35,172 nucleotides of DNA from Phycisphaerae bacterium. GTDB taxonomy: Bacteria > Planctomycetota > Phycisphaerae > SM23-33. The notes under the pieces were generated by a model. That model had not been told where the DNA came from, did not search any database, and saw only the letters and a list, made by a program, of their open reading frames with translations. The first letter of the stretch is position 1. The number at the start of each line of letters is the position of its first letter. The position numbers were made by a program, and so were the translations under genes. The DNA lies in assembly GCA_016929245.1 (NCBI GenBank), contig JAFGJE010000151.1:1-35172 (forward strand), read 5' to 3'. Below are positions 1 through 13,609 of this stretch, in pieces.

Positions 1-899
1 CCGTCGATCTGCGCGTCAGCACGCTGCCCACCGTCCACGGGGAAAAGTGCGTCATTCGCATCCTGGACAACCGTTCGATCTGCGTGGGACTGGAGAATCT
101 CGGGTTCGCGGCGGCTACCTTCGAAACCTGGAAGCGGGAAATCCTTCAGCCGCACGGCATCATCCTCGTGACGGGACCGACCGGAAGCGGAAAGAGCACC
201 ACGCTGTACTCGTCGCTGCAGATCATGGACCGCGAGAAGCTGAATATTTCCACCGTCGAGGATCCCGTGGAATACGAACTGGACCACATCAACCAGGTCA
301 GCGTGCGGGACACGATCGGCATGAGCTTCTCCGCGGCGTTGCGCAGCCTGCTGCGCCAGGACCCGGACATCATCATGGTCGGCGAAATCCGCGACCAGGA
401 AACCGCCTGCATCGCCGTGCAGGCGTCCCTGACCGGGCACCTGGTGCTCTCGACGCTGCACACCAACGACGCGCCGTCGAGCATCACGCGCCTGATCAAC
501 ATCGGCGTGGAACCGTACCTGATCAGCGCGTCGGTCAACGCCGTGCTCGCCCAGCGCCTCGTGCGGCGCATCTGCCCGAACTGCAAGGAAGAAACCAACT
601 CCTTCCTGGAACACGAGGAAGGCTTCATGAAGCGACGGAATCTGACGGTGGAAAAACACTTCCGCGGAAAAGGCTGCGAGAAGTGCCGCAAAACCGGATA
701 CAAGGGACGGCTTGGGTTGTACGAACTTCTCGTGCTGGACGACGAACTGCGCGACGTGATCACGAGCAGCCCCGCGCTGGGCGATCTGCGTCGTTACGCG
801 CAAAGCCACGGAATGGTCAGCCTGCAGCAGGACGGACTGCTGAAGGTCACCACCGGAGAAACCACCGTCGAGGAAATCATGCGCGTCACGGAAACGTAA
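1..899 (+). CDS. pilB: Type IV pilus assembly ATPase PilB/GspE (5' truncated by window edge)
   Basis: C-terminal part of the hexameric ATPase that powers pilus extension from the cytoplasmic side of the inner membrane. The reading frame is open from base 3, and the codons before the first internal ATG are clearly coding (VDLRVSTLPTVHGEK), so the gene starts upstream of the window. Visible motifs in order are Walker A GPTGSGKSTT (bases ~174-203), the Asp box around EDPVEYEL, Walker B QDPDIIMVGEIRD, the His box TGHLVLSTLHTND, and a PilB/GspE tetracysteine zinc motif (CPNC ... CEKC). The tetracysteine separates it from PilT, which follows 18 bases downstream. First visible gene of a seven-gene pilus operon. 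Confidence 0.95.
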   Translation, partial: VDLRVSTLPTVHGEKCVIRILDNRSICVGLENLGFAAATFETWKREILQPHGIILVTGPTGSGKSTTLYSSLQIMDREKLNISTVEDPVEYELDHINQVSVRDTIGMSFSAALRSLLRQDPDIIMVGEIRDQETACIAVQASLTGHLVLSTLHTNDAPSSITRLINIGVEPYLISASVNAVLAQRLVRRICPNCKEETNSFLEHEEGFMKRRNLTVEKHFRGKGCEKCRKTGYKGRLGLYELLVLDDELRDVITSSPALGDLRRYAQSHGMVSLQQDGLLKVTTGETTVEEIMRVTET

Positions 900-917
900 A
901 CCGTACTGGAGTTGAAC

Positions 918-1979
918 ATGTTACCCCGTGTGGAAATTTTAACCAAAGCCGTCGCCGCCGGCGCCAGCGACGTGCACATCGTGCCCGGACAACCGCCCAT
1001 CATGCGTCTGCACACCATCCTGGCGCCGATTGACGGATACCCCCTCGTGCAACCCTCCGACGCGATGGACATGGTGCGGGACATGGTGCCCGAACGGATG
1101 CTGGGGCGCCTCGACGAAATCCGCGACCTGGACTTCGGCGCGCAGATCGACGGTGTGGGCCGCTTCCGCGTCAACGCGCACTACCAGCGCGACGTGGTGA
1201 GCATCGCCTTCCGCGCCATTCCCCACGAGGTGCCCGACGTCCTTTCGCTGCACCTGCCCCAAGCCATCGAAAAATTCGCCGACCTTCCCCGCGGCCTGGT
1301 GCTGGTGACCGGACCGACCGGAAGCGGAAAAAGCACCACCCTCGCCAGCGTCATCAACGCGATGAACCATCGATCCAATCGCCACGTGATCACGATCGAG
1401 GATCCCATCGAATACGAACTGATCTCCGACAAATGTCTCATCGAGCAGCGCGAACTGGGCCTGGACGTGCCCTCGTTCGCCAGCGGTCTGCGCCACGCGC
1501 TGCGCCAGGACCCGGACGTGATCCTCGTCGGCGAAATGCGCGACCTGGAGACCACGTCGGCCGCCATCACCGCCGCGGAAACCGGGCACCTGGTCCTCTC
1601 GACCCTGCACACGTCCAGCGCCGCGCAAACCTGCGCGCGCATCGTGGACATCTACCCCGGCGAACAGCAGACGCACATCCGCAACATGCTCGCGGGCAGC
1701 CTGGCGGCCGTCATCACGCAAACCCTGTTCAAACGCGCCGATCAACCGGGCATGATCCCCGCCTGCGAAGTGATGATCTGCAACGCGGCCGTGCGAAACT
1801 GCATCCGGGAAAACCGTCTGCACGAAATCCCCAACATCATCGGAACCAACCGAAACATCGGGATGTGCATGATGGATGAATCGATCAAAACGCTTGTCGT
1901 CAACGGAAAAATCACCCGCGAGGACGCCCTCGCCAAGGCGAGCCATTCCGAGGCGCTGGCGCGCATCCTGCGCGGATGA
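918..1979 (+). CDS. pilT: Twitching motility/retraction ATPase PilT
   Basis: Cytoplasmic ATPase of the PilT family that disassembles and retracts type IV pili. The 353-residue length matches PilT (about 340-370). It carries the N-terminal PAS-like segment (ASDVHIVPGQPPIMRLH), Walker A GPTGSGKSTT near residue 135, Walker B QDPDVILVGEMRDLET, the His box TGHLVLSTLHTSSA, and the PilT-specific C-terminal AVRNCIREN, which corresponds to the AIRNLIRE retraction motif. It has no tetracysteine motif. I chose ATG 918 because GGAG at 908-911 sits 6 bases upstream. An in-frame TTG at 912 would add two residues but overlaps that ribosome site. Confidence 0.95.
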   Translation: MLPRVEILTKAVAAGASDVHIVPGQPPIMRLHTILAPIDGYPLVQPSDAMDMVRDMVPERMLGRLDEIRDLDFGAQIDGVGRFRVNAHYQRDVVSIAFRAIPHEVPDVLSLHLPQAIEKFADLPRGLVLVTGPTGSGKSTTLASVINAMNHRSNRHVITIEDPIEYELISDKCLIEQRELGLDVPSFASGLRHALRQDPDVILVGEMRDLETTSAAITAAETGHLVLSTLHTSSAAQTCARIVDIYPGEQQTHIRNMLAGSLAAVITQTLFKRADQPGMIPACEVMICNAAVRNCIRENRLHEIPNIIGTNRNIGMCMMDESIKTLVVNGKITREDALAKASHSEALARILRG

Positions 1980-1989
1980 GGTATGTATC

Positions 1990-3216
1990 ATGCCGAAGTA
2001 TAAATACGAGGTGCAAGGCGCCGGTTCGGACATCTCCACGGGCGTCGTGGAGGCGGGCAATCTCATCGAAGCCTCCGACTGGGTTCGCTCCCAGGGCGGG
2101 TATCTCGTGAACATCGTCCCTCTTCCGGACGGCGGCGGATTCCTGAATCAGGTGAAGAACCTGCGCCTCGATCCCAAACCCGGACTCAAGGACATTCTGA
2201 GTTTCACGAAGCAGTTGTCGGTGATGATCAAAGCCGGCATCGGCATCCGCGACGCCGTCGAGGGAATCGCCGATCAGGTGATTAACATGCGATTCAAGAA
2301 AATCCTCGACGAAATCAAGGACGACGTCGAATCGGGTATGGCGTTTTCCGCGGCGCTGGCGAAGCATCCGAAAATCTTCAGCCCGTTGTACGTCAACATG
2401 GTCCGCGCGTCGGAAATGTCCGGCACCTTTTCGCACATGCTCAACCGGATCGGATCGTACCTGTCCCAGCAGGCCGAAACGAGACGCATGGTCATCGGCG
2501 CGATGGTCTATCCCGCCGTCCTGTTCTTCATGTCGATGGCCGCCGTGACCTTCCTCCTGACCTGGGTGCTCCCGCGATTCCTGACGTTCTTCGCCGGAAA
2601 AGAACACCTGCTGCCCAAGCCCACGCTGTTCATCATGGGCGTCAGCGATTTTCTCACCCACCAGTGGTACTTCCTGATCCTGGGGATCATCGTGACGATC
2701 GTCGGATTGACATTCGCCGTGCGAACACCCCAGGGAAAACTGATCTGGGACACCATCAAACTGAAACTTCCCATTTTCAAACGCATGTTCCGGGCGCTGT
2801 ACATCACGCGAAGCCTTCAGACCATGGGCGAACTGCTTGCCGCCGGCGTTCCGATTCTCGAAACCCTTGAGATCACATCCGAAGTATCCGGAAATCAGAA
2901 TTATATGAATATGTGGAATAATGTGAGGGATGCGGTTCAACAGGGGAATCAAATCATTCAGCCGCTGCACAATCAGAAGCTCCTGCCCCCCAACGTGGTG
3001 CAGATGATCGGCGCGGGAGAAAATTCAGGAAATCTTGGCCCCGTGCTCCAAGATATCTCAGACTTCTATCAGAAGGAGTTGAAAGACACGATCAAGGCCG
3101 TTACCTCCTTGATCGAGCCGGTCATGATTGTATTCATGGGCGTGGTCATCGGAGCGATCGCCATGAGCATCATGTTGCCGGCGATTAAGATTTCCAGCAT
3201 CATGAAACCCACTTAA
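1990..3216 (+). CDS. pilC: Type IV pilus inner-membrane platform protein PilC (GspF family)
   Basis: A 408-residue polytopic protein that forms the inner-membrane platform on which the PilB and PilT motors act. It starts MPKYKYEVQG, typical of the family, and contains two GspF domains, roughly residues 65-190 and 270-395. The first includes LSFTKQLSVMIKAGIGIRDAVEGI and the second ITRSLQTMGELLAAGVPILETLEI. Three hydrophobic segments lie near residues 172-195, 220-242 and 375-400. ATG 1990 is preceded by GAGG at 1978-1981. The frame is open further upstream (to 1876), but that part overlaps pilT and reads as its shadow. The gene follows pilT by 10 bases, and its 3' third is less GC-rich. Confidence 0.94.
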   Translation: MPKYKYEVQGAGSDISTGVVEAGNLIEASDWVRSQGGYLVNIVPLPDGGGFLNQVKNLRLDPKPGLKDILSFTKQLSVMIKAGIGIRDAVEGIADQVINMRFKKILDEIKDDVESGMAFSAALAKHPKIFSPLYVNMVRASEMSGTFSHMLNRIGSYLSQQAETRRMVIGAMVYPAVLFFMSMAAVTFLLTWVLPRFLTFFAGKEHLLPKPTLFIMGVSDFLTHQWYFLILGIIVTIVGLTFAVRTPQGKLIWDTIKLKLPIFKRMFRALYITRSLQTMGELLAAGVPILETLEITSEVSGNQNYMNMWNNVRDAVQQGNQIIQPLHNQKLLPPNVVQMIGAGENSGNLGPVLQDISDFYQKELKDTIKAVTSLIEPVMIVFMGVVIGAIAMSIMLPAIKISSIMKPT

Positions 3217-3230
3217 CTCAAGAGACAAAG

Positions 3231-3686
3231 ATGAAAACGCGACGCCGGGACAGGAATCACCGAGGGGGGAAACGCCTGGGATTTACCCTGGTCGAAGCCC
3301 TGGTCACGATTCTCATGCTGAGCATCGGATTGGCGGGAATCATGGGCGCGGTGAACCTCGGCATTCGCTACAGCGGAGAAGGGGCGGAGCTGACCCAGGG
3401 GATTTTCCTCGCGCAGGAAATCCGCGAGCGTACATTGAACATGGACTTCACGGATGTCGCGGCCCTGGACGGCGTGACGTATCAACCGCCGATCAACAGC
3501 CACGGCGTACCCATTCTCGGTATGGGCGGGTGGTCCCAGACGATCACCACGTCCTACCGTTCGGAAAGTGATCCCAGTGCGACCTTGGCCTCAGGGACGA
3601 GCGACCTTGTATACGTTCAGGTGCAGACCGCCAGGCAAGGCGACGTCGCCCTGACGACGGGCTGGCTGGTAGCCAGGAAGGAGTGA
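3231..3686 (+). CDS. PilV-like minor prepilin (type IV prepilin N-terminal motif)
   Basis: A 151-residue protein with a long basic leader (about 21 residues, many Arg/Lys) followed by a class III prepilin cleavage site and hydrophobic alpha-helix: RLG then FTLVEALVTILMLSIGLAG. The Glu at +5 after the expected PilD cleavage is present. Spacing and sequence after the helix (MGAVNLGIRYSGEGAELTQGIFLAQEIRERTL) resemble the PilV/GspI minor pilin group. It lies 14 bases after pilC and 4 bases before the next gene. It probably joins a tip complex of minor pilins that primes pilus assembly. The family is secure. The PilV assignment rests on overall pattern only. Confidence 0.85.
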   Translation: MKTRRRDRNHRGGKRLGFTLVEALVTILMLSIGLAGIMGAVNLGIRYSGEGAELTQGIFLAQEIRERTLNMDFTDVAALDGVTYQPPINSHGVPILGMGGWSQTITTSYRSESDPSATLASGTSDLVYVQVQTARQGDVALTTGWLVARKE

Positions 3687-3690
3687 TCTT

Positions 3691-5055
3691 ATGCGAGCAC
3701 GACGTAGGTCACGTCCACGTTCACGCCGCAGAGGCGCGTCCTACGTGTTGGCATTAATCATGACGGCGGTGTTGTCCACCATGGCGATGGCCATGGTCAA
3801 GTCCACCGGCGTGGAAGTTCGGAAAGCCGTCAACCAGCGTGAGTCGGTCAAAGCCCGTCTCGCGGCGGAGAGCGGCGTGGCGTTCCTGACGACAAAACTC
3901 GGGCAATTCCAGATCACCGGAAGCCCCACCCCCGAAACGGTTCTGAGCAATCTCGCGTCCTTCCTCAACACGGAACTGCCCGACGGAACCGTCAGTTTCG
4001 GCGGGGGGGAGATTCAGATCACCGGTCTGACCATCGATCCCTCGTGCGGAACGTTTACCGGCGCGTTCGCCCTGAACGCCGAGGACGATATCGAACTGGA
4101 AGTGGAGGGACAGTCCTCCCAGGCGCTTCGCACCATCGGGCTGAACTACGAGCTGACCCCCGGCGGACAGGGGATTTTCTCCAAGGGGATCGTCGCCGGA
4201 GGTTCCATCCAGATGACGGGCAACGCGCATATTGACGGGGCGAATTCCGCCGAAGAAGGATCGATCCTCAGCCTGTCGGATCAGACCACCGTGTACGATC
4301 TGACGGGCAACTGCCGCATCGAGGGCGACATCTACGGTTCCAATCCCGACGGAGAATGCGACTTGACGGGCAACGTCGAGATCGGCGGCGTCAACGCGAG
4401 CAACCCGGAGGTGGTCAACCACATCCACTTCGGCGTGGATGAAACGGAAATTCCCCGTCCCGATCCGAGCGTGTTTGAACCCTTCGCCACCACCGTGTTG
4501 AGCGGAGGCACCAGCGGAAACAAAACATTCACGAACATTCGCATCCCCGCCGGCACGAATCCCACCTTCGCGGGAAACATCACTCTCAAGGGCGTGATTT
4601 TTGTCGAAACGCCCAACGACGTGACGTTCGCGGGCAATCTGAGTCTCCAGGGGATCATCGTCACGGAAGACCCCGGTTCCTACGCGACGGCTGACAACAA
4701 GCTGAAATTCACCGGAAACACCAGCCTGCAGGGCGTCGAAACCCTGCCAGACCAGCCGGAATTCGCCGGTCTGCGCGACATGCCCGGAGCGTCCATCCTC
4801 GCTCCGGGATTTGAAACGCGGTTCACGGGCAACTTCGGAACCGTGGGCGGAACGCTGGCGGCCGAGAAATTCACGTTCGTCGGGAATGCTTCGGCGACGG
4901 TCAAGGGAAGCATTCTGAGTTTCGGTGACGATCCCTTCGTGATGACGGGAAACGCCCACATTACCATTGACCGATCCGAATACGACGATATCCCGCCGGG
5001 ATTCAGCGTTCCTTCGACACTTTCTTCCATCGCATCTTCCTATGTAGAGTACTGA
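3691..5055 (+). CDS. PilX-like large minor pilin with TGN repeat (putative beta-solenoid), copy 1
   Basis: A 454-residue protein. The N terminus has a very basic leader (MRARRRSRPRSRRRG), a transmembrane helix at residues ~17-38 and a PilX_N-type segment ending in the AAESG motif (residues 58-62). The helix begins ASYVL, so the Glu expected at position 5 of a normal pilin is replaced by Leu. Residues ~175-425 contain nine copies of a short repeat of the form [FLM][TAV]GN-x-x-[hydrophobic]-x-G, such as MTGNAHIDG, LTGNCRIEG, FAGNITLKG, FAGNLSLQG and FTGNTSLQG. This is typical of stacked beta-strand folds. AGGAG lies 7 bases before ATG 3691, overlapping the stop of the previous gene. It is probably a surface-exposed or tip component of the pilus. 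The exact role is unknown. Confidence 0.85.
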   Translation: MRARRRSRPRSRRRGASYVLALIMTAVLSTMAMAMVKSTGVEVRKAVNQRESVKARLAAESGVAFLTTKLGQFQITGSPTPETVLSNLASFLNTELPDGTVSFGGGEIQITGLTIDPSCGTFTGAFALNAEDDIELEVEGQSSQALRTIGLNYELTPGGQGIFSKGIVAGGSIQMTGNAHIDGANSAEEGSILSLSDQTTVYDLTGNCRIEGDIYGSNPDGECDLTGNVEIGGVNASNPEVVNHIHFGVDETEIPRPDPSVFEPFATTVLSGGTSGNKTFTNIRIPAGTNPTFAGNITLKGVIFVETPNDVTFAGNLSLQGIIVTEDPGSYATADNKLKFTGNTSLQGVETLPDQPEFAGLRDMPGASILAPGFETRFTGNFGTVGGTLAAEKFTFVGNASATVKGSILSFGDDPFVMTGNAHITIDRSEYDDIPPGFSVPSTLSSIASSYVEY

Positions 5056-5057
5056 TC

Positions 5058-6425
5058 ATGATACGGCAGCAGATAAAACGTAAGGTTCCAAAGAAACACA
5101 AAGGCGTTTCGTACATCCTTTCCCTCATCGTCGTCATGCTCCTGGGCGCGTTGGGCATGGCGATGATTCAAAGCACCGGCAAGGAGATCCACAAGGGTCT
5201 CAACCAGCGCGACGGGATGAACGCCCGCCTGGCGGCCGAGAGCGGTTTGGCGTATCTGACGGAGGTTCTCGAACGATTCGAGATTTCCGGTTCTCCCAGT
5301 TCCTCCGCGCTGTTCAACGCCCTGGGTTCCTATTACAACGACGAACTGACGACCGGGAGCGTCTCCTACGACGGCGCGCACGTGACGATCAGCGGCGTGC
5401 AGGCCGGTCCGTCGGGATCGACGTTCACCGGTCAATTCGCCCCGGGCGTGGAAAACGAGGTGGTCGTGACGGTCACGGGGCAAACCGGCGAGGCGCAACG
5501 AACCTTGCAATTGAGCTTCGAGCTCGTGCCCGGCGGCGGAATTTTCGACAAGGGCATCGTCTCGATGGGTCCGATCCACATCTCCGGCAGCGCTCAGATC
5601 GACGGCGCCAACAACAACGGCGAATCGGATATCCTGAGTCTCTCGGACAGCGGAATCGTGTTCGACCTTGCCAGCAGTTGCGACCTGGCCGGCGACATCT
5701 ACACCGTCAGCGACGATCCGGCGAGCGTGGATCTGTCCGGGGCGGTGACGGTCGCGGGCATTCCGCGAACCAACCCCGCGATCTGGAATCACATTCACCT
5801 GGGCGTCGAACCGCAGGAACTGCCCCGTCCGGACACGTCCACCTTCGCCGCCTTCGCCACGAACACGCTGGCGAGCGTTCCTCCCGCCGGTTCGACAATC
5901 ATCAATACTCGCGTCCCCGCGGGGATGAATCCGACGTTCAATGACAACACCGTCATCCAGGGGGTGCTGTACATCGAGTCGCCGAACGAAGTCACGTTCA
6001 GCGGAAACGTGTCCGTCTCGGGCGTGATCGTGACGGACGACCCCGGCGCGGGCGCGACGGCCGACAACACGCTGAGTTTCCAGGGAAACGCGTCCATCGA
6101 AGGCGTGGAATCCCTTCCCGCCGACCCGTTGTTCGACGAACTCCGTACCATGCCCGGATCGTCGATCCTCGCCCCGGGATTTGAAGTGACGCTGACCGGA
6201 AGCATGGGCACGGTCGGCGGAACCATCGCCGCCGAACAAATCGCGATGACGGGAAACGCCACCCTCAGCGTGCAGGGAATGATCATGAACCTGGGAAGCG
6301 CCCCGATGGAAATGGGCGGAAGCACGCACGTGACGATCGACCGTTCCGTGTACGACACGGTACCGCCGGGATTCACCGTCCCCTCGGTGCTGTCCACGGT
6401 TCCGTCCTCCTATACGGAAAATTAA
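5058..6425 (+). CDS. PilX-like large minor pilin with degenerate TGN repeat, copy 2
   Basis: A 455-residue tandem paralogue of the preceding gene, colinear from end to end. It shares the basic leader, the helix starting VSYIL (again no Glu at +5), LNQRDGMNARLAAESG, the VPGGGIFDKGIV segment, and the C-terminal YDTVPPGFTVPSVLS (YDDIPPGFSVPSTLS in copy 1). The Gly-Asn repeat is present at the same places but eroded: several TGN cores have become SGS, SSC, SGA or NDN (for example ISGSAQIDG, LSGAVTVAG), while FSGNVSVSG, FQGNASIEG and MTGNATLSV remain. The start lies two bases after the stop of copy 1 and has only a weak ribosome site, so translation is probably coupled. It results from gene duplication followed by divergence. 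Confidence 0.85.
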   Translation: MIRQQIKRKVPKKHKGVSYILSLIVVMLLGALGMAMIQSTGKEIHKGLNQRDGMNARLAAESGLAYLTEVLERFEISGSPSSSALFNALGSYYNDELTTGSVSYDGAHVTISGVQAGPSGSTFTGQFAPGVENEVVVTVTGQTGEAQRTLQLSFELVPGGGIFDKGIVSMGPIHISGSAQIDGANNNGESDILSLSDSGIVFDLASSCDLAGDIYTVSDDPASVDLSGAVTVAGIPRTNPAIWNHIHLGVEPQELPRPDTSTFAAFATNTLASVPPAGSTIINTRVPAGMNPTFNDNTVIQGVLYIESPNEVTFSGNVSVSGVIVTDDPGAGATADNTLSFQGNASIEGVESLPADPLFDELRTMPGSSILAPGFEVTLTGSMGTVGGTIAAEQIAMTGNATLSVQGMIMNLGSAPMEMGGSTHVTIDRSVYDTVPPGFTVPSVLSTVPSSYTEN

Positions 6426-6429
6426 CACC

Positions 6430-6975
6430 ATGAAACCAGCGAGCATATATCGACGTCTCCCGACGCGACGCTCCCTCGGCGTCCGCGGGGGATTCACGCT
6501 CGTGGAAATGCTGCTGTCGATCACGATCATGGCCATCGTGATGGTGGCCGTCGCCGGCGCGACGCACGTGAGCATGCGGACGTACGAAGCCAACCAAACC
6601 GACGCGCAACTCGGCGGAGCGGCCCGCGCGATCCTGCAACGCATCGCGCGGGAGATCCGCGGCGCGTCGTCGGTCACCTGCTCCCTGCACCACCTGACGA
6701 TCACCCCCGCCAGCGGTCCGGACCAGATCGATTATATCCTGGAAGGGGGGCAGTTCCACTGCGACCGCACCACCGGCGCGGGAACCCAGCGATACACCCT
6801 CCTGACCAGCACCGATGACGTCCATATGACGAATTTCCTGATCTATATCTCCACGATGACCGTGGACGAACAAACCGTCACCGCCATGGTCACCGTGCAA
6901 CTGCATTTCATCGCCAACCTGCAGCCGATGGTGGTTTCCGCCTCGGCGTGCCCCAGACAGAACGTCAGTCCGTGA
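6430..6975 (+). CDS. PilW/GspJ-like minor prepilin
   Basis: A 181-residue prepilin. A basic leader of about 25 residues ends in VRGG, followed by FTLVEMLLSITIMAIVMVAVAGA with Glu at +5, the standard prepilin peptidase site and membrane helix. The segment after the helix (MRTYEANQTDAQLGGAARAILQRIAREIRGASSV) matches the conserved start of PilW/GspJ proteins, where a predicted amphipathic helix is followed by R-E-I/L-R. It begins 4 bases after the preceding stop and is the last gene of the pilus operon. The remainder is beta-rich with only one pair of Cys (residues ~83 and ~104), then one near the C terminus. The family call is firm. The specific name is by analogy. Confidence 0.83.
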   Translation: MKPASIYRRLPTRRSLGVRGGFTLVEMLLSITIMAIVMVAVAGATHVSMRTYEANQTDAQLGGAARAILQRIAREIRGASSVTCSLHHLTITPASGPDQIDYILEGGQFHCDRTTGAGTQRYTLLTSTDDVHMTNFLIYISTMTVDEQTVTAMVTVQLHFIANLQPMVVSASACPRQNVSP

Positions 6976-7349: not shown

Positions 7350-7778
7350 ATGAACACGACCGACAACGATACGCCCTGGTACGCGGCGGGACTGGCGTTT
7401 GAATGTCTGGAATGCGGGCGCTGCTGCGCCGGTCCGGAGGAAGGATACGTCTGGGTGTCCGACGAGGAAATTCGCGTCCTCGCCGATTTTCTCCGCCTGA
7501 CGGACAAAGCCTTCCGCGCCCGGTATGTCCGCCGCGTCGGACGCCGACAAAGCCTCGTGGAAAAGAAGAAACAAAAGGACTGCATCTTCCTGGAGCGGGG
7601 AAAATGCACCGTCTACTCCGTCCGTCCCGTGCAGTGTCGCACCTGGCCGTTCTGGGCGATGAATCTCGCCTCCCCGGAAGACTGGTCCTACGCCGCCTCC
7701 CGCTGCATGGGCATGAATCGCGGAACGGTGTTCCCCCTGGACGAAATCCAGACCCGCGCGAACAAAACCAAAGCGTAA
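7350..7778 (+). CDS. YkgJ-family cysteine-cluster protein (zinc/iron-chelating domain)
   Basis: A 142-residue soluble protein of the YkgJ/UPF0153 CxxCxxCC family, whose members are thought to bind zinc or an iron-sulfur cluster. Their function is not established. Eight cysteines are visible: C19, C22, C25 and C26 (FECLECGRCCAGPE), then C78 (KDCIFLE), C86 (GKCTVYSVRP), C96 (VQCRTWPFW) and C119 (SRCMGM). The order and the VRPxQCRTWPFW block are diagnostic. The gene stands alone between two palindromic elements. ATG 7350 lies about 8 bases after a good -10 box and has no Shine-Dalgarno sequence, suggesting a leaderless transcript. Confidence 0.9.
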   Translation: MNTTDNDTPWYAAGLAFECLECGRCCAGPEEGYVWVSDEEIRVLADFLRLTDKAFRARYVRRVGRRQSLVEKKKQKDCIFLERGKCTVYSVRPVQCRTWPFWAMNLASPEDWSYAASRCMGMNRGTVFPLDEIQTRANKTKA

Positions 7779-8888: not shown

Positions 8889-8948
8889 GAAAACAGAGCA
8901 TAACTCAACGCAATGGATTTTATAAATCTTCTTCAGGAGATCACAAAT

Positions 8949-10220
8949 ATGTCAGAAACGTTAGCCATTCACGGCGGAACGCCCGTACTAGGGCCGGACG
9001 CTTTCCTCAATTGGCCTCCCATCGACGACATCGACCGGAAGATGGTGATGGACTCCCTGGAAGGCAACAAGCACGCCTTCGGCCCGAACTGTCGGGCGCT
9101 GGAAACGGAATTCGCCGAATGGAACGGTAACAAATTCGCCGTGACGACCAATTCCGGAACGGCGGCACTGCACATGTCGCTGGTCGCGTGCGGCTGCGGG
9201 GTGGGCGATCACGTGCTCGTGACCGCCTATAGCTGGTCCAGCTCCGCGACGTGCATCCTGCATCATAACTGCATTCCCGTGTTCGTGGACATCGACTGGG
9301 ACACGATGAACATCGACACGAAAAAGATCGAACAGGCGATCACTCCGCAAACCAAGGCCATCGTCGTTGTGCACCTGCACGGCCTGTCGGTGAACATGGA
9401 CGAAGTGCTCGCCGTGGCGAAGAAGCACAACCTGAAGGTGATCGAAGACGCCTGCCAGGCCCACGGCGCGACGTTCAAGGGGCAAAAGGTCGGCACGTTC
9501 GGCGACTGCGCGGCCTTCAGCTTCAACCAGAACAAGTGCCTCTGTTCCGGCGAAGGAGGCATGTTCGTGACGAACAACGAGGACTATCTCGCCAAGGCCC
9601 GGCAGGTGTGGTCGTTCGGCGAAGTGCGCACGCCCTTGGAAGATCGCGATTACCACGCCTACGCCCTGGGATGGATGTACCGCAACAACGACCTGACGGC
9701 GGCGTTCGGTCGGGCGCAACTGTCCAAACTCACCGGATACATCCGGCAGCAGCGAGAAAACGCCGCACGTCTGACGGAATGTCTCCGGGATATCCCGAAT
9801 CTTCTCCTGCCGACGGAACCGAAAGATCACGAGCATAACTGGTACAATTACACCATTCGGTTCGACATGGAGGCGCTGGGGCATGTCGAAGACGCCGCGA
9901 CGTTCCGCCACAAACTGATCAAGGCCCTCCAGGCGGAGGGATTGCCCACGAGCGTCTGGCAGGCGTTCGCGCTACCGACGATGACGGTCTTCCAGGCCCG
10001 CAACGCCTACGGGAAGGGTTGCCCGTGGGATTGCCCGCACACGACGCCCGTCGCCTACGACGAAGCGGACTATCCCGTCGCGAAAAAACACTGCGACCGG
10101 CACACCGGACTGACCATGCCCCTGCGAGCGCCCAACAAACCCGACGCCGCGAAAAAAGTCGCCCGGGTCTACGAAAAAGTGATGGCCGACATCGATCAGG
10201 TGGAGAAAGTGAAACTATGA
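8949..10220 (+). CDS. DegT/DnrJ/EryC1/StrS-family PLP-dependent aminotransferase
   Basis: A 423-residue fold-type I PLP enzyme of the sugar aminotransferase group, which usually transfers an amino group from glutamate to a keto sugar. Visible features are VTTNSGTAALHMSL near residues 65-80 (phosphate binding), IEDACQAHGA with the PLP-ring aspartate at about D167, and FSFNQNKCLCSGEGG with the Schiff-base lysine at about K196. The family consensus has a Thr-rich sequence after that lysine; here it is CLCSGEGG. ATG 8949 has AGGAGA 8 bases upstream. An in-frame ATG at 8913 would add twelve residues and has no ribosome site. It overlaps the next gene by ATGA. Substrate unknown. In this operon it may act in breakdown rather than nucleotide-sugar synthesis. 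Confidence 0.93.
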   Translation: MSETLAIHGGTPVLGPDAFLNWPPIDDIDRKMVMDSLEGNKHAFGPNCRALETEFAEWNGNKFAVTTNSGTAALHMSLVACGCGVGDHVLVTAYSWSSSATCILHHNCIPVFVDIDWDTMNIDTKKIEQAITPQTKAIVVVHLHGLSVNMDEVLAVAKKHNLKVIEDACQAHGATFKGQKVGTFGDCAAFSFNQNKCLCSGEGGMFVTNNEDYLAKARQVWSFGEVRTPLEDRDYHAYALGWMYRNNDLTAAFGRAQLSKLTGYIRQQRENAARLTECLRDIPNLLLPTEPKDHEHNWYNYTIRFDMEALGHVEDAATFRHKLIKALQAEGLPTSVWQAFALPTMTVFQARNAYGKGCPWDCPHTTPVAYDEADYPVAKKHCDRHTGLTMPLRAPNKPDAAKKVARVYEKVMADIDQVEKVKL

Positions 10221-11029
10221 AACTTTGCATGATGTCCTATACCGTCTCCCGCCGGAAGGATTTTTTTGACCTGAAGCGCATGCTGGATTTGACCGTCGAA
10301 CTCGGATTGGAGGGGATCGACTTCGTCACGCTGCACGACGAATCTCCGCGGACGCTCAAGTCGATGTGTGACGACCGCGGCTTGAAGATCGTCTGCCACA
10401 CGTTCATGGCCGACCTGAACCATCCGACGGCCGAAGAACGTCAACCGGGCGTCGAAACCTGCAAGCAGGGCATCGAAAACGCCGTCGCTCTCGGCGCGCC
10501 GGTGATCATGCTGCCGACGAAAGTCATTCCCGGCCGCTCGTCGGCGGAGAGTCGCCGGAACTGGATCGAAGGTCTGAAGGACGTCGCTCCCATCGCCAAA
10601 GACGCGGGCGTGATTCTCACCGTGGAGAATTTCCCCGGCAAGGAGAGTCCCTTCGTGACGGCCGATCATTTCCTCGAAGCGGCCGGGGAAGTGCCGGGCC
10701 TGAAGCTGACCTACGACTCCGGTAACGCCGGTTCCGGGGAAGACCCCGCCGAGAGCTTTCGCCGCACCGCCTCCCACGCCGTCCACGCCCATTTCAAGGA
10801 TTGGGAAATTTCGGATCAACCCCAAGACGGCTACCGCGAAATGCTGGACGGGCGCTATTACAAACCGGCGTTGATCGGCGAAGGCGACATCCCCCACAAA
10901 CCCGTCATCGAAGCGATGAAATCCGCCGGATACGAAGGCTTCATTAACATAGAATATGAAGGCGACAAATATGACCCCTACGAAGGAATCCGCCGCGCGG
11001 TGGAGTACCTCCGCGGCCTGGGAGTATGA
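10217..11029 (+). CDS. Sugar phosphate isomerase/epimerase family protein (xylose isomerase-like TIM barrel)
   Basis: A 270-residue AP-endonuclease-2/xylose-isomerase-like TIM barrel. Conserved metal-site elements are TVENFPGKES (Glu ligand), LTYDSGNAG (Asp), HAHFKDWE (His/Asp) and the final FINIEYEG (Glu), with GLEGIDFVTLHDE on an early strand. The family covers isomerases, epimerases and dehydratases of keto or inositol sugars, so the exact reaction is open. The ATG overlaps the aminotransferase stop (ATGA, 10217-10220), indicating translational coupling. No signal peptide is present, so it is cytoplasmic. The neighbours suggest it handles the same sugar-like substrate as the aminotransferase. 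Confidence 0.9.
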   Translation: MKLCMMSYTVSRRKDFFDLKRMLDLTVELGLEGIDFVTLHDESPRTLKSMCDDRGLKIVCHTFMADLNHPTAEERQPGVETCKQGIENAVALGAPVIMLPTKVIPGRSSAESRRNWIEGLKDVAPIAKDAGVILTVENFPGKESPFVTADHFLEAAGEVPGLKLTYDSGNAGSGEDPAESFRRTASHAVHAHFKDWEISDQPQDGYREMLDGRYYKPALIGEGDIPHKPVIEAMKSAGYEGFINIEYEGDKYDPYEGIRRAVEYLRGLGV

Positions 11030-11062
11030 CGTCTGCGATCATCGCCTGGGAAAAAAACTCCT

Positions 11063-12139
11063 ATGAACAAACAAACACGTGATCGCTATGCCGCGTTCTG
11101 GGAATGTTCCTCCCTGGGCCGACCGCTGTTATTCGTAACCGCGCCGCGCCCCGACGCCGAAGAGCACCCCGACGACAAGCGTCCCCGCGACGCGGACGAA
11201 CTGGGCGATTGGCTGTTCAACCCGCGACGAGTCCTGCCGCGCCTCGCACGCCGGGTGAAAAACACCTACCACGCCGCCGAAGCCTTTCCGATTACGTTTC
11301 CGATGACCACAAACCTTCCCGCCCTCCAGGCGGGATTTCTGGGCGGCGATTATCGTGTCTCTCCGGACAACGGATCGGGCTGGTGCGACCCCGTGATCGA
11401 CGACCTGGACGAATGGTGTAAAACCGCCGCCGTCGATCCCGAAAATATCTGGTGGACGCGAACGCTCACACTCCTGTCCGAAGCGCAATGCCTGGCGAAG
11501 GAGGGAATCATCGTGGCCCACCCCGACACGCAGGGCGGCGGGCAGATTCTGGATCTGCTGCGCGGGACGGAAAAACTCGCCATGGATATGATCGATCAGC
11601 CGGAGGCGATTCAAACGGCTATGCGAAGAATCGATGAAACCTGGCTGGAGTATTGGACCGCCATGAACGCCGTCATCGGCGAGTATCAGAATGGTCACGC
11701 CGATTGGCTGCGGGTGTATTCCGACAGGCCGATGGTCTGCCCGGAGTGCGACGTGTCCTGCATGATCTCCAACGCGATGTTCCGGGAATTTTTCCTTCCC
11801 AGCGTTCGATTTCAGTGTGAAACCGCCGAACGAAGCATACATCATCTGGACGGCCCGGGCGCGATCCGGCACCTCGACAGTCTTCTGGAAATTTCCTCGC
11901 TCAACGGAATCCAATGGGTTCCCGGCGCGGGGGCGAAGCCCATGGTGGAATGGCTGGATCTTCTGAAGAAAATCCAGGACGCCGGCAAGTGTCTGCATAT
12001 CAGTTGTCCCTCGGAGCAGGTTCTCGCCGTCGTCTCGGAATTGCGGCCGGAGGGTTTGTACATCCGTACCGGTTGCGCTTCCCCCGACCAGGCCGATAAA
12101 CTCGTCCAGAACGTTTCCCGACAATTTGGAGAACAGTAA
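11063..12139 (+). CDS. Uroporphyrinogen decarboxylase-fold protein (URO-D-like, probable catabolic or methyltransferase subfamily)
   Basis: A 358-residue protein of the URO-D/MtaA superfamily. It begins with the RDRYAAFWECSSLGRPLLFVTAP segment seen in the planctomycete/Lentisphaerae-type URO-D-like proteins and ends with HHLDGPGAIRHLDSLLEI, GIQWVPGAGAKPMVEWLDLLKKI and LHISCPSEQV. The His-x-x-Cys near the end could bind zinc, as in corrinoid:CoM methyltransferases, but the full ligand set cannot be confirmed. Length and context argue against a haem-pathway HemE: there are no other haem genes, and it sits in a sugar-type operon under an AraC regulator. It starts 33 bases after the previous stop with only a weak GGGA ribosome site. 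Confidence 0.82.
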   Translation: MNKQTRDRYAAFWECSSLGRPLLFVTAPRPDAEEHPDDKRPRDADELGDWLFNPRRVLPRLARRVKNTYHAAEAFPITFPMTTNLPALQAGFLGGDYRVSPDNGSGWCDPVIDDLDEWCKTAAVDPENIWWTRTLTLLSEAQCLAKEGIIVAHPDTQGGGQILDLLRGTEKLAMDMIDQPEAIQTAMRRIDETWLEYWTAMNAVIGEYQNGHADWLRVYSDRPMVCPECDVSCMISNAMFREFFLPSVRFQCETAERSIHHLDGPGAIRHLDSLLEISSLNGIQWVPGAGAKPMVEWLDLLKKIQDAGKCLHISCPSEQVLAVVSELRPEGLYIRTGCASPDQADKLVQNVSRQFGEQ

Positions 12140-12142
12140 AAC

Positions 12143-13609
12143 ATGAACACCCAATCACAAAATACATCGAACCTGAAGATCGGCTGGGCGCGGGCGGACA
12201 TCACCCCGCCGGAACCCGTCGCCCTGTGCGGGCAATTTCACATCCGCATGTCCGAAGGCGTGCACGACCCCTTAACCGCGACCGTCCTGGTGCTGGACGA
12301 CGGGAACGACCAGGCGGTGTTCGTCAGTTGCGATCTCGTTGCCACGTCCAACGAACTACGAGACGACGTGATATCCCGCCTGGCCGGGCGGGTAGATGTG
12401 TTGAACCCGCAAAAAATCATCCTTCACGCGACGCACACGCATACGGCCCCGAATGTGTGTCCTAAAACGTCATTCCAACATGAGGAAACCATCACGCTTC
12501 TGAAGATAGACGCGATGGACACGGAGGACTACATTTGCTTTGCGGGTGAACGGATCGCCGATGCCGTCGATAAGGCATGGAAATCCCGCGCTACGGGAAA
12601 GATCGCGTTCGGAATGGACTACGCCGTCGTGGGCCGCAATCGCCGATGGGTGAATACCGAAGGCGTGTCCAAAATGCTTGGTAACACGAACGACGAAAAG
12701 TTCAGCCACGTCGAAGGCTACGAGGATCACTCCGTGGGCGTGATCGCTACGCGCGACGAAAAGGGCGAATTGACCGGCCTGGTGGTCAATATCGCGTGTC
12801 CCTCGCAGGTGGTGGGCGGCGAGTATACCGTCAGCGCGGATTTCTGGCACGACATCCGCGTGGAACTGCGAAAACGATTCGGCGAAACCCTGTTCATTCT
12901 CCCGCAACTCAGCGCCGCCGGGGACCAGTGCCCGCATCTGATGTACGACAAGCAGGCCCACCGGCGCATGCTCGAACTGGCCGGCCGAACCGAGCGCGAG
13001 GAATACGGCCTTCGCGTCGCCGACGCGGTTTCGCGCGCCCTGGCGATTCTCGGCGACCGCACCGACGCCGCTGCGCCCCTGCGACATCACGTCGAAACGC
13101 TTCAACTGCCCGTGACCCGCATCACCCAACAACAGGCGCAGGACGCTCGGAACGAAGCGGAAACCTGGAAGCATACCTTCGACGAGGAAATAAAAAAACT
13201 CGAAGACGATCCCTCCCTGCGCGAGCAGCCGCGATGGTACGTACCCGCTTCCCGCGCCCGAAGCCGGATGTTGTGGTATCAAAGCGCCGTGGATCGATAC
13301 GAGCAGCAGGAGAAAAACGCCGCCAAACCCTATCCGGCGGGAATACACGTCATCCGGCTGGGCGATATCGTCTTCGCGACGAATCCGTTCGAGTATTACC
13401 TCGATTTCGGCGTGTTCATCAAGGTCCGCAGCAAGGCCGTCCAGACGTTCCTGGTGCAACTGGCGGGATCGGCCACGTACGTTCCATCCCAGCGTTCGAC
13501 CCAAGGCGGCGGATATGGTTCGGTGCCTTCGAGCAATCCCGTAGGCCCGGAAGGCGGGCGGATGCTGGCGGAAAAAACCATCGACGTGATCGAGCAACTC
13601 TGGAAATAA
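12143..13609 (+). CDS. Neutral/alkaline ceramidase-like hydrolase, cytoplasmic form
   Basis: A 488-residue protein matching the N-terminal catalytic domain of neutral ceramidases: GWARADITPPEPVALCGQF at the start, then LVLDDGNDQAVFVSCDLV, and the zinc motif HATHTHTAPN near residues 95-104. Ceramidases use a nucleophilic Ser in GDVSP. The matching place here is AAGDQCPH with Cys at residue 263. There is no signal peptide and no C-terminal immunoglobulin-like domain, so a cytoplasmic amidase on a small N-acyl or related substrate seems likelier than ceramide. GGAG lies about 10 bases before ATG 12143, which follows the previous stop by 3 bases. It is the last gene of the AraC-divergent operon. 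Confidence 0.85.
   Translation: MNTQSQNTSNLKIGWARADITPPEPVALCGQFHIRMSEGVHDPLTATVLVLDDGNDQAVFVSCDLVATSNELRDDVISRLAGRVDVLNPQKIILHATHTHTAPNVCPKTSFQHEETITLLKIDAMDTEDYICFAGERIADAVDKAWKSRATGKIAFGMDYAVVGRNRRWVNTEGVSKMLGNTNDEKFSHVEGYEDHSVGVIATRDEKGELTGLVVNIACPSQVVGGEYTVSADFWHDIRVELRKRFGETLFILPQLSAAGDQCPHLMYDKQAHRRMLELAGRTEREEYGLRVADAVSRALAILGDRTDAAAPLRHHVETLQLPVTRITQQQAQDARNEAETWKHTFDEEIKKLEDDPSLREQPRWYVPASRARSRMLWYQSAVDRYEQQEKNAAKPYPAGIHVIRLGDIVFATNPFEYYLDFGVFIKVRSKAVQTFLVQLAGSATYVPSQRSTQGGGYGSVPSSNPVGPEGGRMLAEKTIDVIEQLWK

Follow-up and report, generated by a model that had tools for sequence, protein, structure and literature searches.

The window analysed here is the whole stretch of 35,172 bases, which makes up the entire contig C227 of a 4.16 Mb assembly, and we found that it carries, all on the (+) strand and in this order, pilB-, pilT-, pilC- and pilV-like genes, two genes for large minor pilins with a predicted solenoid domain (copy 1 and copy 2), and a pilW/GspJ-like gene. 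The pilB-like assembly ATPase (3..899; Pfam T2SSE, 2.4e-96) is a 298-residue open frame from base 3 that is truncated by the contig start. It is followed by a pilT-like ATPase (912..1979; T2SSE, 2.2e-48), which occupies the equivalent place in relatives, and by a pilC-like platform protein (1990..3216; Pfam T2SSF, 8.9e-56), the likely start of which, at 1990, agrees with the 408-residue orthologue at L035. The pilV-like minor pilin (3231..3686) has a GFTLVE site with Glu5 and matches N_methyl at 6.9e-5 and PilV at 2.2e-7 (the latter under cut-off), while the pilW/GspJ-like minor pilin at the far end (6430..6975) also has a GFTLVE site with Glu5 (N_methyl, 3.2e-6). Directly past the pilus operon, at 7350-7778, lies the gene of a small protein with a CxxCxxCC zinc/iron-chelating domain (1.8e-11). 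Further along on the same strand (8913-13609) we observe genes for a DegT-type aminotransferase and a xylose-isomerase-like barrel, as well as for a protein matching the neutral ceramidase N-terminal domain (1.7e-10); the called frames of the aminotransferase and the barrel overlap at 10019-10220, and one of them has probably been given a wrong start.

The two large pilins are encoded at 3691..5055 (copy 1, 454 residues, with a regular T-G-N array) and 5058..6425 (copy 2, 455 residues, with a Ser-rich variant array of SGS, ASS, SGA and similar triplets). A preliminary description made from this DNA had proposed two adjacent paralogues of these lengths, and both reading frames are in place and are 50% identical, with 69% positives, over their full length (E = 5e-161). 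It had also assigned a PilX-type N-terminal helix to the pair. This assignment stands: in copy 1, PilX_N matches residues 14-64 with 26.4 bits (cut-off 25.5), and copy 2, although under the cut-off at 14.7 bits, shares the 50% identity throughout. The best NCBIfam match of copy 1 is GspK (1.2e-7, under its cut-off), and copy 1 does not match the curated GspK model over its whole length, the alignment being confined to residues 14-72 and scoring 31.5 bits where the cut-off is 130; because this match is partial and sub-threshold, we file the proteins as GspK/PilX-type pilins by their helix and place, not as GspK orthologues. Putative cleavage in copy 1 would follow Gly15, and in both copies the +5 residue is Leu, so that Glu5 is missing. 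The label "giant" given to them earlier is fair when compared with PilX, but large minor pilins of the GspK/ComZ type are already known.

Upon examining the repeats, copy 1 has nine [FLMIVW]xGN motifs within residues 175-423, compared with a mean of 0.78 in shuffled sequences (P <= 0.0002, the floor for 5000 shuffles), with the rung Asn at residues 178, 207, 228, 296, 316, 343, 381, 399 and 421. This bears out the nine [FLM]xGN repeats first counted, although the full pattern proposed with them, in which GN is followed by two residues, a hydrophobic residue, any residue and Gly, is strictly kept by roughly six of them, with departures after GN in the final three. Copy 2 was described as keeping the frame of the repeat while losing many Asn, and we find the same: it has three GN, with no excess (P = 0.47), but occurrences of the relaxed frame [hydrophobic]xG[NSAQDTH] outnumber expectation (16 versus 6.8, P = 0.0012). 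The Ser-rich altered residues of copy 2 are largely common to the copy 2 of a related genome (72% identical overall), indicating a kept variant more than decay. At the DNA level, no tandem repeat was found by TRF with a minimum score of 30.

Predicted fold and other settings of the module

AF2 models were built from four sequences and cover copy 1. The full-length model (mean pLDDT 71) has a helix at residues 15-72 (3733..3906), placed by DSSP of the model together with PilX_N and the family columns, then an alpha/beta module at residues 81-153 (3931..4149) consisting by DSSP of a helix plus five strands with pLDDT of about 70-80, and then repeated strands. In this model the alpha/beta module is probably the pilin globular domain. 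The solenoid domain was refolded alone because a fold search with the whole protein gave weak, mixed matches only, and residues 158-445 (4162..5025), which span the nine x-G-N rungs as delimited by the domain model and the motif counts, form a beta-strand-rich repeat fold with a pLDDT of 88.2 and a pTM of 0.88. The preliminary description had proposed structure prediction for both copies; copy 1 came out strand-rich and solenoid-like, and the corresponding domain of copy 2 (residues 159-445; 5532..6392) is placed by alignment to copy 1 only.

Searching the isolated domain against the PDB with Foldseek, the best match was the DUF3494 ice-binding protein 6eio (E = 1.9e-3, probability 0.95), alongside tapirin adhesin domains (E = 0.015) and the tip pilin ComZ (6qvi; E = 0.054), with nothing at E <= 0.001 and TM-scores of about 0.2-0.3. 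A viral structure library also returned DUF3494 proteins for the solenoid model, whereas the DUF3494 domain itself was not among the Pfam matches of the family proteins. The best matches are weak but coherent, all of them being solenoids, and the repeat domain of copy 1 is therefore predicted to be a beta-solenoid. The beta-helix reading offered at the outset is thus favoured by a confident, strand-rich domain and by solved structures that are beta-solenoids, each matching weakly.

Within a non-repeat excursion of the solenoid, at 4420-4464 (copy 1 residues 244-258), we observe a conserved HIH...P-x-x-D stretch, with His244 kept in 90 of 112 family members and Pro255 in 111, which is possibly a metal site or a structural plug. 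Membership of DUF7305 (PF23981) was rejected on its cut-off, as copy 1 residues 169-251 score 20.4 bits against 27; the model matches one of 12 aligned members, even at E = 0.01, and no paper on DUF7305 was found in the literature. A separate protein with an above-cut-off DUF7305 match (4.4e-7) is encoded elsewhere in the same genome, on contig C53 (G000:C53:1878-2138, (-) strand).

The module also emerges outside pilins. The protein at L073 joins a signal-like N-terminus, the module and a dockerin (Pfam, 3.9e-8), that at L070 joins the module to a PEP-CTERM-like end (1.5e-3, just under cut-off), and a 910-residue protein at L163 combines a beta-helix region with the module, indicating that the domain is secreted and can stand on its own, and that pilins either took it over from such proteins or passed it on to them. 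Additionally, another PilX-type protein, encoded in the genome of a relative (L072:4989-6089), bears a laminin-G/ConA-like lectin module (Pfam, 4.4e-28) near two prepilin-like frames and is a second kind of modular pilin in the group.

Distribution, operon order and tandem copies

The family is present in 34 of 38 genomes of the order, and a 12-member profile matches 115 of the 298 genomes of the class at 1e-10, some of these matches covering the pilin helix and the adjoining region only. Outside the class, a phylum sample of 392 genomes gave no match at 1e-20, the members recovered being of the same class, and neither viral contigs nor plasmids contained a relative. A near relative, the MAG 'Phycisphaerae bacterium isolate Zod_Metabat.1221', carries both genes, and the order pilB-pilT-pilC-pilV-(one to three solenoid pilins)-pilW recurs within the order. 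The helix, the repeat and the tandem pair, which the preliminary description had proposed to look for in homologues, were thus found again in relatives.

When inspecting 95 loci, we find a PilV/PilW-like neighbour of the family member in 44, both PilC and PilV in 34, and two or more copies close together in 35. About half of the loci have no detected PilV/PilW-like neighbour; contig ends occur in some of these and unrelated genes surround others, and lone copies adjoin unrelated genes such as lipA/lipB-like ones (names read from the sequence, with no family search). Adjacent pairs often consist of one near-perfect TGN array and one changed array, as in L038, L040, L042, L043, L045, L046, L047, L123, L036 and the window, and pairs with similar arrays also exist (for example, L135 and L149). 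In the tree, the two copies of the window group with both copies of the sister genome (L036), indicating that the pair came from a local duplication separate from several others. We also observe a longer subfamily of about 540-740 residues (L115:2737-4605, L131:6567-8492, L144:8062-9708 and others), which shares the helix, has a different rung pattern (FxNC, FTGxA, LGNTN), and often stands beside a copy of the GN type; most of its members lie away from the pilB-T-C operon.

Matched residues of the x-G-N array

We newly found that the x-G-N residues agree among the rungs of any one protein and are exchanged as a whole set from one protein to another. Comparing within-protein rung identity at each repeat phase with columns shuffled across proteins, in 87 members under 60% identity, we observed excess identity of 0.113, 0.046 and 0.172 at phases -2, -1 and 0, which form the x-G-N tripeptide (z of 20, 17 and 33, respectively). 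The excess at phase +1 was 0.001 and at every other phase at most 0.024, the weak residual lying mostly at -4, +2, -3 and +6. Residues other than Asn also agree within proteins (0.311 versus 0.148), and the sets include TGN/SGN, SGQ, KNN, EH, HGH, K-A/S, NGS/NGA and Ser-rich types. In a tree built without the array columns, Gln types appear in more than one clade, while tree-based independent-pairs sign tests per rung pair were mostly not significant, being underpowered with few independent pairs. The earlier remark on divergence in binding thus led on to a pattern of matched rungs that runs through the whole family. Furthermore, hydrophobicity alternates from phase -5 to +3, which places phases -4, -2, 0 and +2 outside, and the array residues would accordingly face outward.

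Several trivial sources of the matching were rejected. Relatedness alone does not account for it, since it persists in 25 representatives under 40% identity and the other phases act as an internal control, and neither does an alignment artefact, since an alignment-free motif scan is concordant (z of 11 at -2 and 14 at 0). DNA-level repeats or gene conversion were rejected on the lack of tandem repeats, the unmatched flanking residues and the Asn codons, which agree in the rungs at 0.632 compared with 0.628 for the other Asn codons of the same gene; the Asn codons not being matched, selection on the residue is indicated. Rung Gly codons agree within genes above expectation across the family (0.456 versus 0.382), a modest and unexplained excess.

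Probable tip placement, proposed function and known relatives

At position +5, 100 of 112 family members have Leu, Ile, Met, Val or Ala, whereas Glu5 is found in 40 of 46 PilV-like and 21 of 23 PilW-like neighbours with a readable motif. The first subunit of a filament is described as recognisable by its large size together with a hydrophobic residue at position 5 (PMC5207764), and a large subunit lacking Glu5 is placed first in the filament in a further report (PMC9934059). Missing Glu5, bulk and likeness to GspK and ComZ thus lend indirect support to a location of the solenoid pilins at the tip, as we infer from sequence and analogy. A search for PilY1, considered as a competing tip adhesin, gave no matches in the 38 genomes and none in control genomes either, which makes this negative uninformative.

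Taken as a whole, we consider it fairly probable that these proteins are modular minor pilins of the GspK/PilX type with a tip solenoid bearing a set-wise tuned, surface-binding array. The helix and the small alpha/beta module would seat the protein at the pilus tip alongside PilV and PilW, from which the bulky solenoid would project as the binding surface. The residues on either side of the corner Gly (x-G-x), along a single edge of the solenoid, would stack rung upon rung into a uniform outward polar array. Since the array is the same throughout a protein and differs as a whole set from one protein to another, its most likely target is repetitive and extended, putatively a polysaccharide or some other regular surface, and re-tuning during evolution would move all rungs together. 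The tandem copies (one to three per operon), often a regular TGN array and a changed one, may then give alternative tips with different specificities. More tentatively, and at less than even likelihood, the array is a tunable ligand-binding grid whose rungs are kept identical by selection and re-chosen as a set, with operon duplications repeatedly yielding a regular and a re-tuned tip, so that a cell would make pili differing in surface specificity. Against the preferred explanation counts that two tip-type subunits per operon cannot both cap one pilus in a simple GspK model. The weak Foldseek matches, the small number of sequences behind the models, the loci with no detected PilV/PilW-like neighbour, the Gly codon excess and the mostly non-significant sign tests weigh against it as well.

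The matching might instead be structural, comparable to the Asn ladder of pectate lyase, with any solenoid homogenising its rungs and the protein being an ordinary tip initiator. Stacks of identical side chains are a known feature of beta-helices, and in the model the position lies beside Gly at a strand corner. We regard this as unlikely, since hydrophobic alternation puts the positions outside, sets of Gln, His, Lys or Glu would be poor replacements for a buried Asn ladder, and phases -2 and 0 are both matched while the inward -5, +1 and +3 are not and -3 is so very weakly. A type II secretion role, in which the operon would build a pseudopilus and the solenoid proteins would be GspK-like pseudopilins pushing or gating substrates, could draw on GspK as the best NCBIfam match of the helix, on neighbours resembling GspI/J-type minor pseudopilins and on secretins encoded elsewhere in the genome. 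The PilT-like ATPase in the operon, typical of retractile pili and not of type II secretion, and the presence of the bulky module on non-pilin surface proteins make it the most improbable of the alternatives.

A solenoid tip pilin could also bind DNA in transformation, as ComZ (6qvi), a DNA-binding solenoid tip pilin (PMC6561018), is among the structural matches, and each of the 20 good genomes of the order has ComEC (PF03772). ComEC, however, is found just as well where no family member was detected (G013, G017), no charge type of the array is conserved, the module occurs with dockerin and PEP-CTERM as well, and the family profile matches no PDB chain in sequence at E <= 10. The solenoid also has a strong negative charge (net -21 in copy 1 and -24 in copy 2, with a family median of -16.5), and such acidity speaks against DNA being the general ligand, although charge alone is not decisive because the solenoid of ComZ is itself without obvious positive patches. 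Overall, DNA binding appears quite unlikely, if slightly less so than a role in secretion.

Returning to the reading as surface-binding tip pilins, several known systems can be compared. The closest in structure, although weakly so, are the DUF3494 ice-binding proteins. The tapirins of Caldicellulosiruptor (6n2b, 4wa0) also present a solenoid-type adhesin domain, the match being weak and of low TM-score. Tapirins bind cellulose, and their genes lie close to those of type IV pili; they are not known to be pilins themselves, and no paper treating tapirin together with type IV pili was found. With the GspK/PilX family the proteins share the helix type, the Gly-ended leader, the hydrophobic +5 residue and the standing of largest protein in the minor pilin cluster, whereas the extra part of GspK is an alpha-helical insert in place of a solenoid of about 290 residues, and two or three tandem copies are found here in many operons. 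Streptococcus sanguinis PilB and PilC likewise present at the tip a binding module grafted on a pilin, but their modules are vWA and lectin (PMC8179133, PMC9934059) and PilC carries Glu5 (PMC9934059).

ComZ of Thermus thermophilus is likewise a type IV minor pilin of unusual size that carries a large beta-solenoid, argued to fit only at the tip, seated with neighbouring minor pilins (PMC6561018). FfIBP was found to be the closest relative of the ComZ solenoid (PMC6561018), and DUF3494 ice-binding proteins are the nearest structures to either solenoid. The family profile, in contrast, has no detectable sequence relation to ComZ or any other PDB chain, and in our model the helix and five-strand module seems to be complete before the solenoid begins, the latter not being inserted in the sheet. 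Most pilin-bearing members, however, end in a conserved YxE-like C-terminal tail that L070 and L073 lack, and a returning strand is thus possible. The uniform x-G-N array and the tandem copies have no counterpart reported for ComZ in the passages considered here (PMC6561018). A beta-solenoid tip pilin is therefore already known and the architecture has precedent. The earlier interpretation of the pair is largely right, and its adhesive part is one we infer.

With these findings ComZ, so far the one beta-solenoid tip pilin with a solved structure, is joined by a family that occurs widely in a single bacterial class and whose solenoid is covered by no curated Pfam model. Should the array be the binding face, the specificity of each protein could be read from three residues, and, if true, what environmental pili grip would become directly testable.
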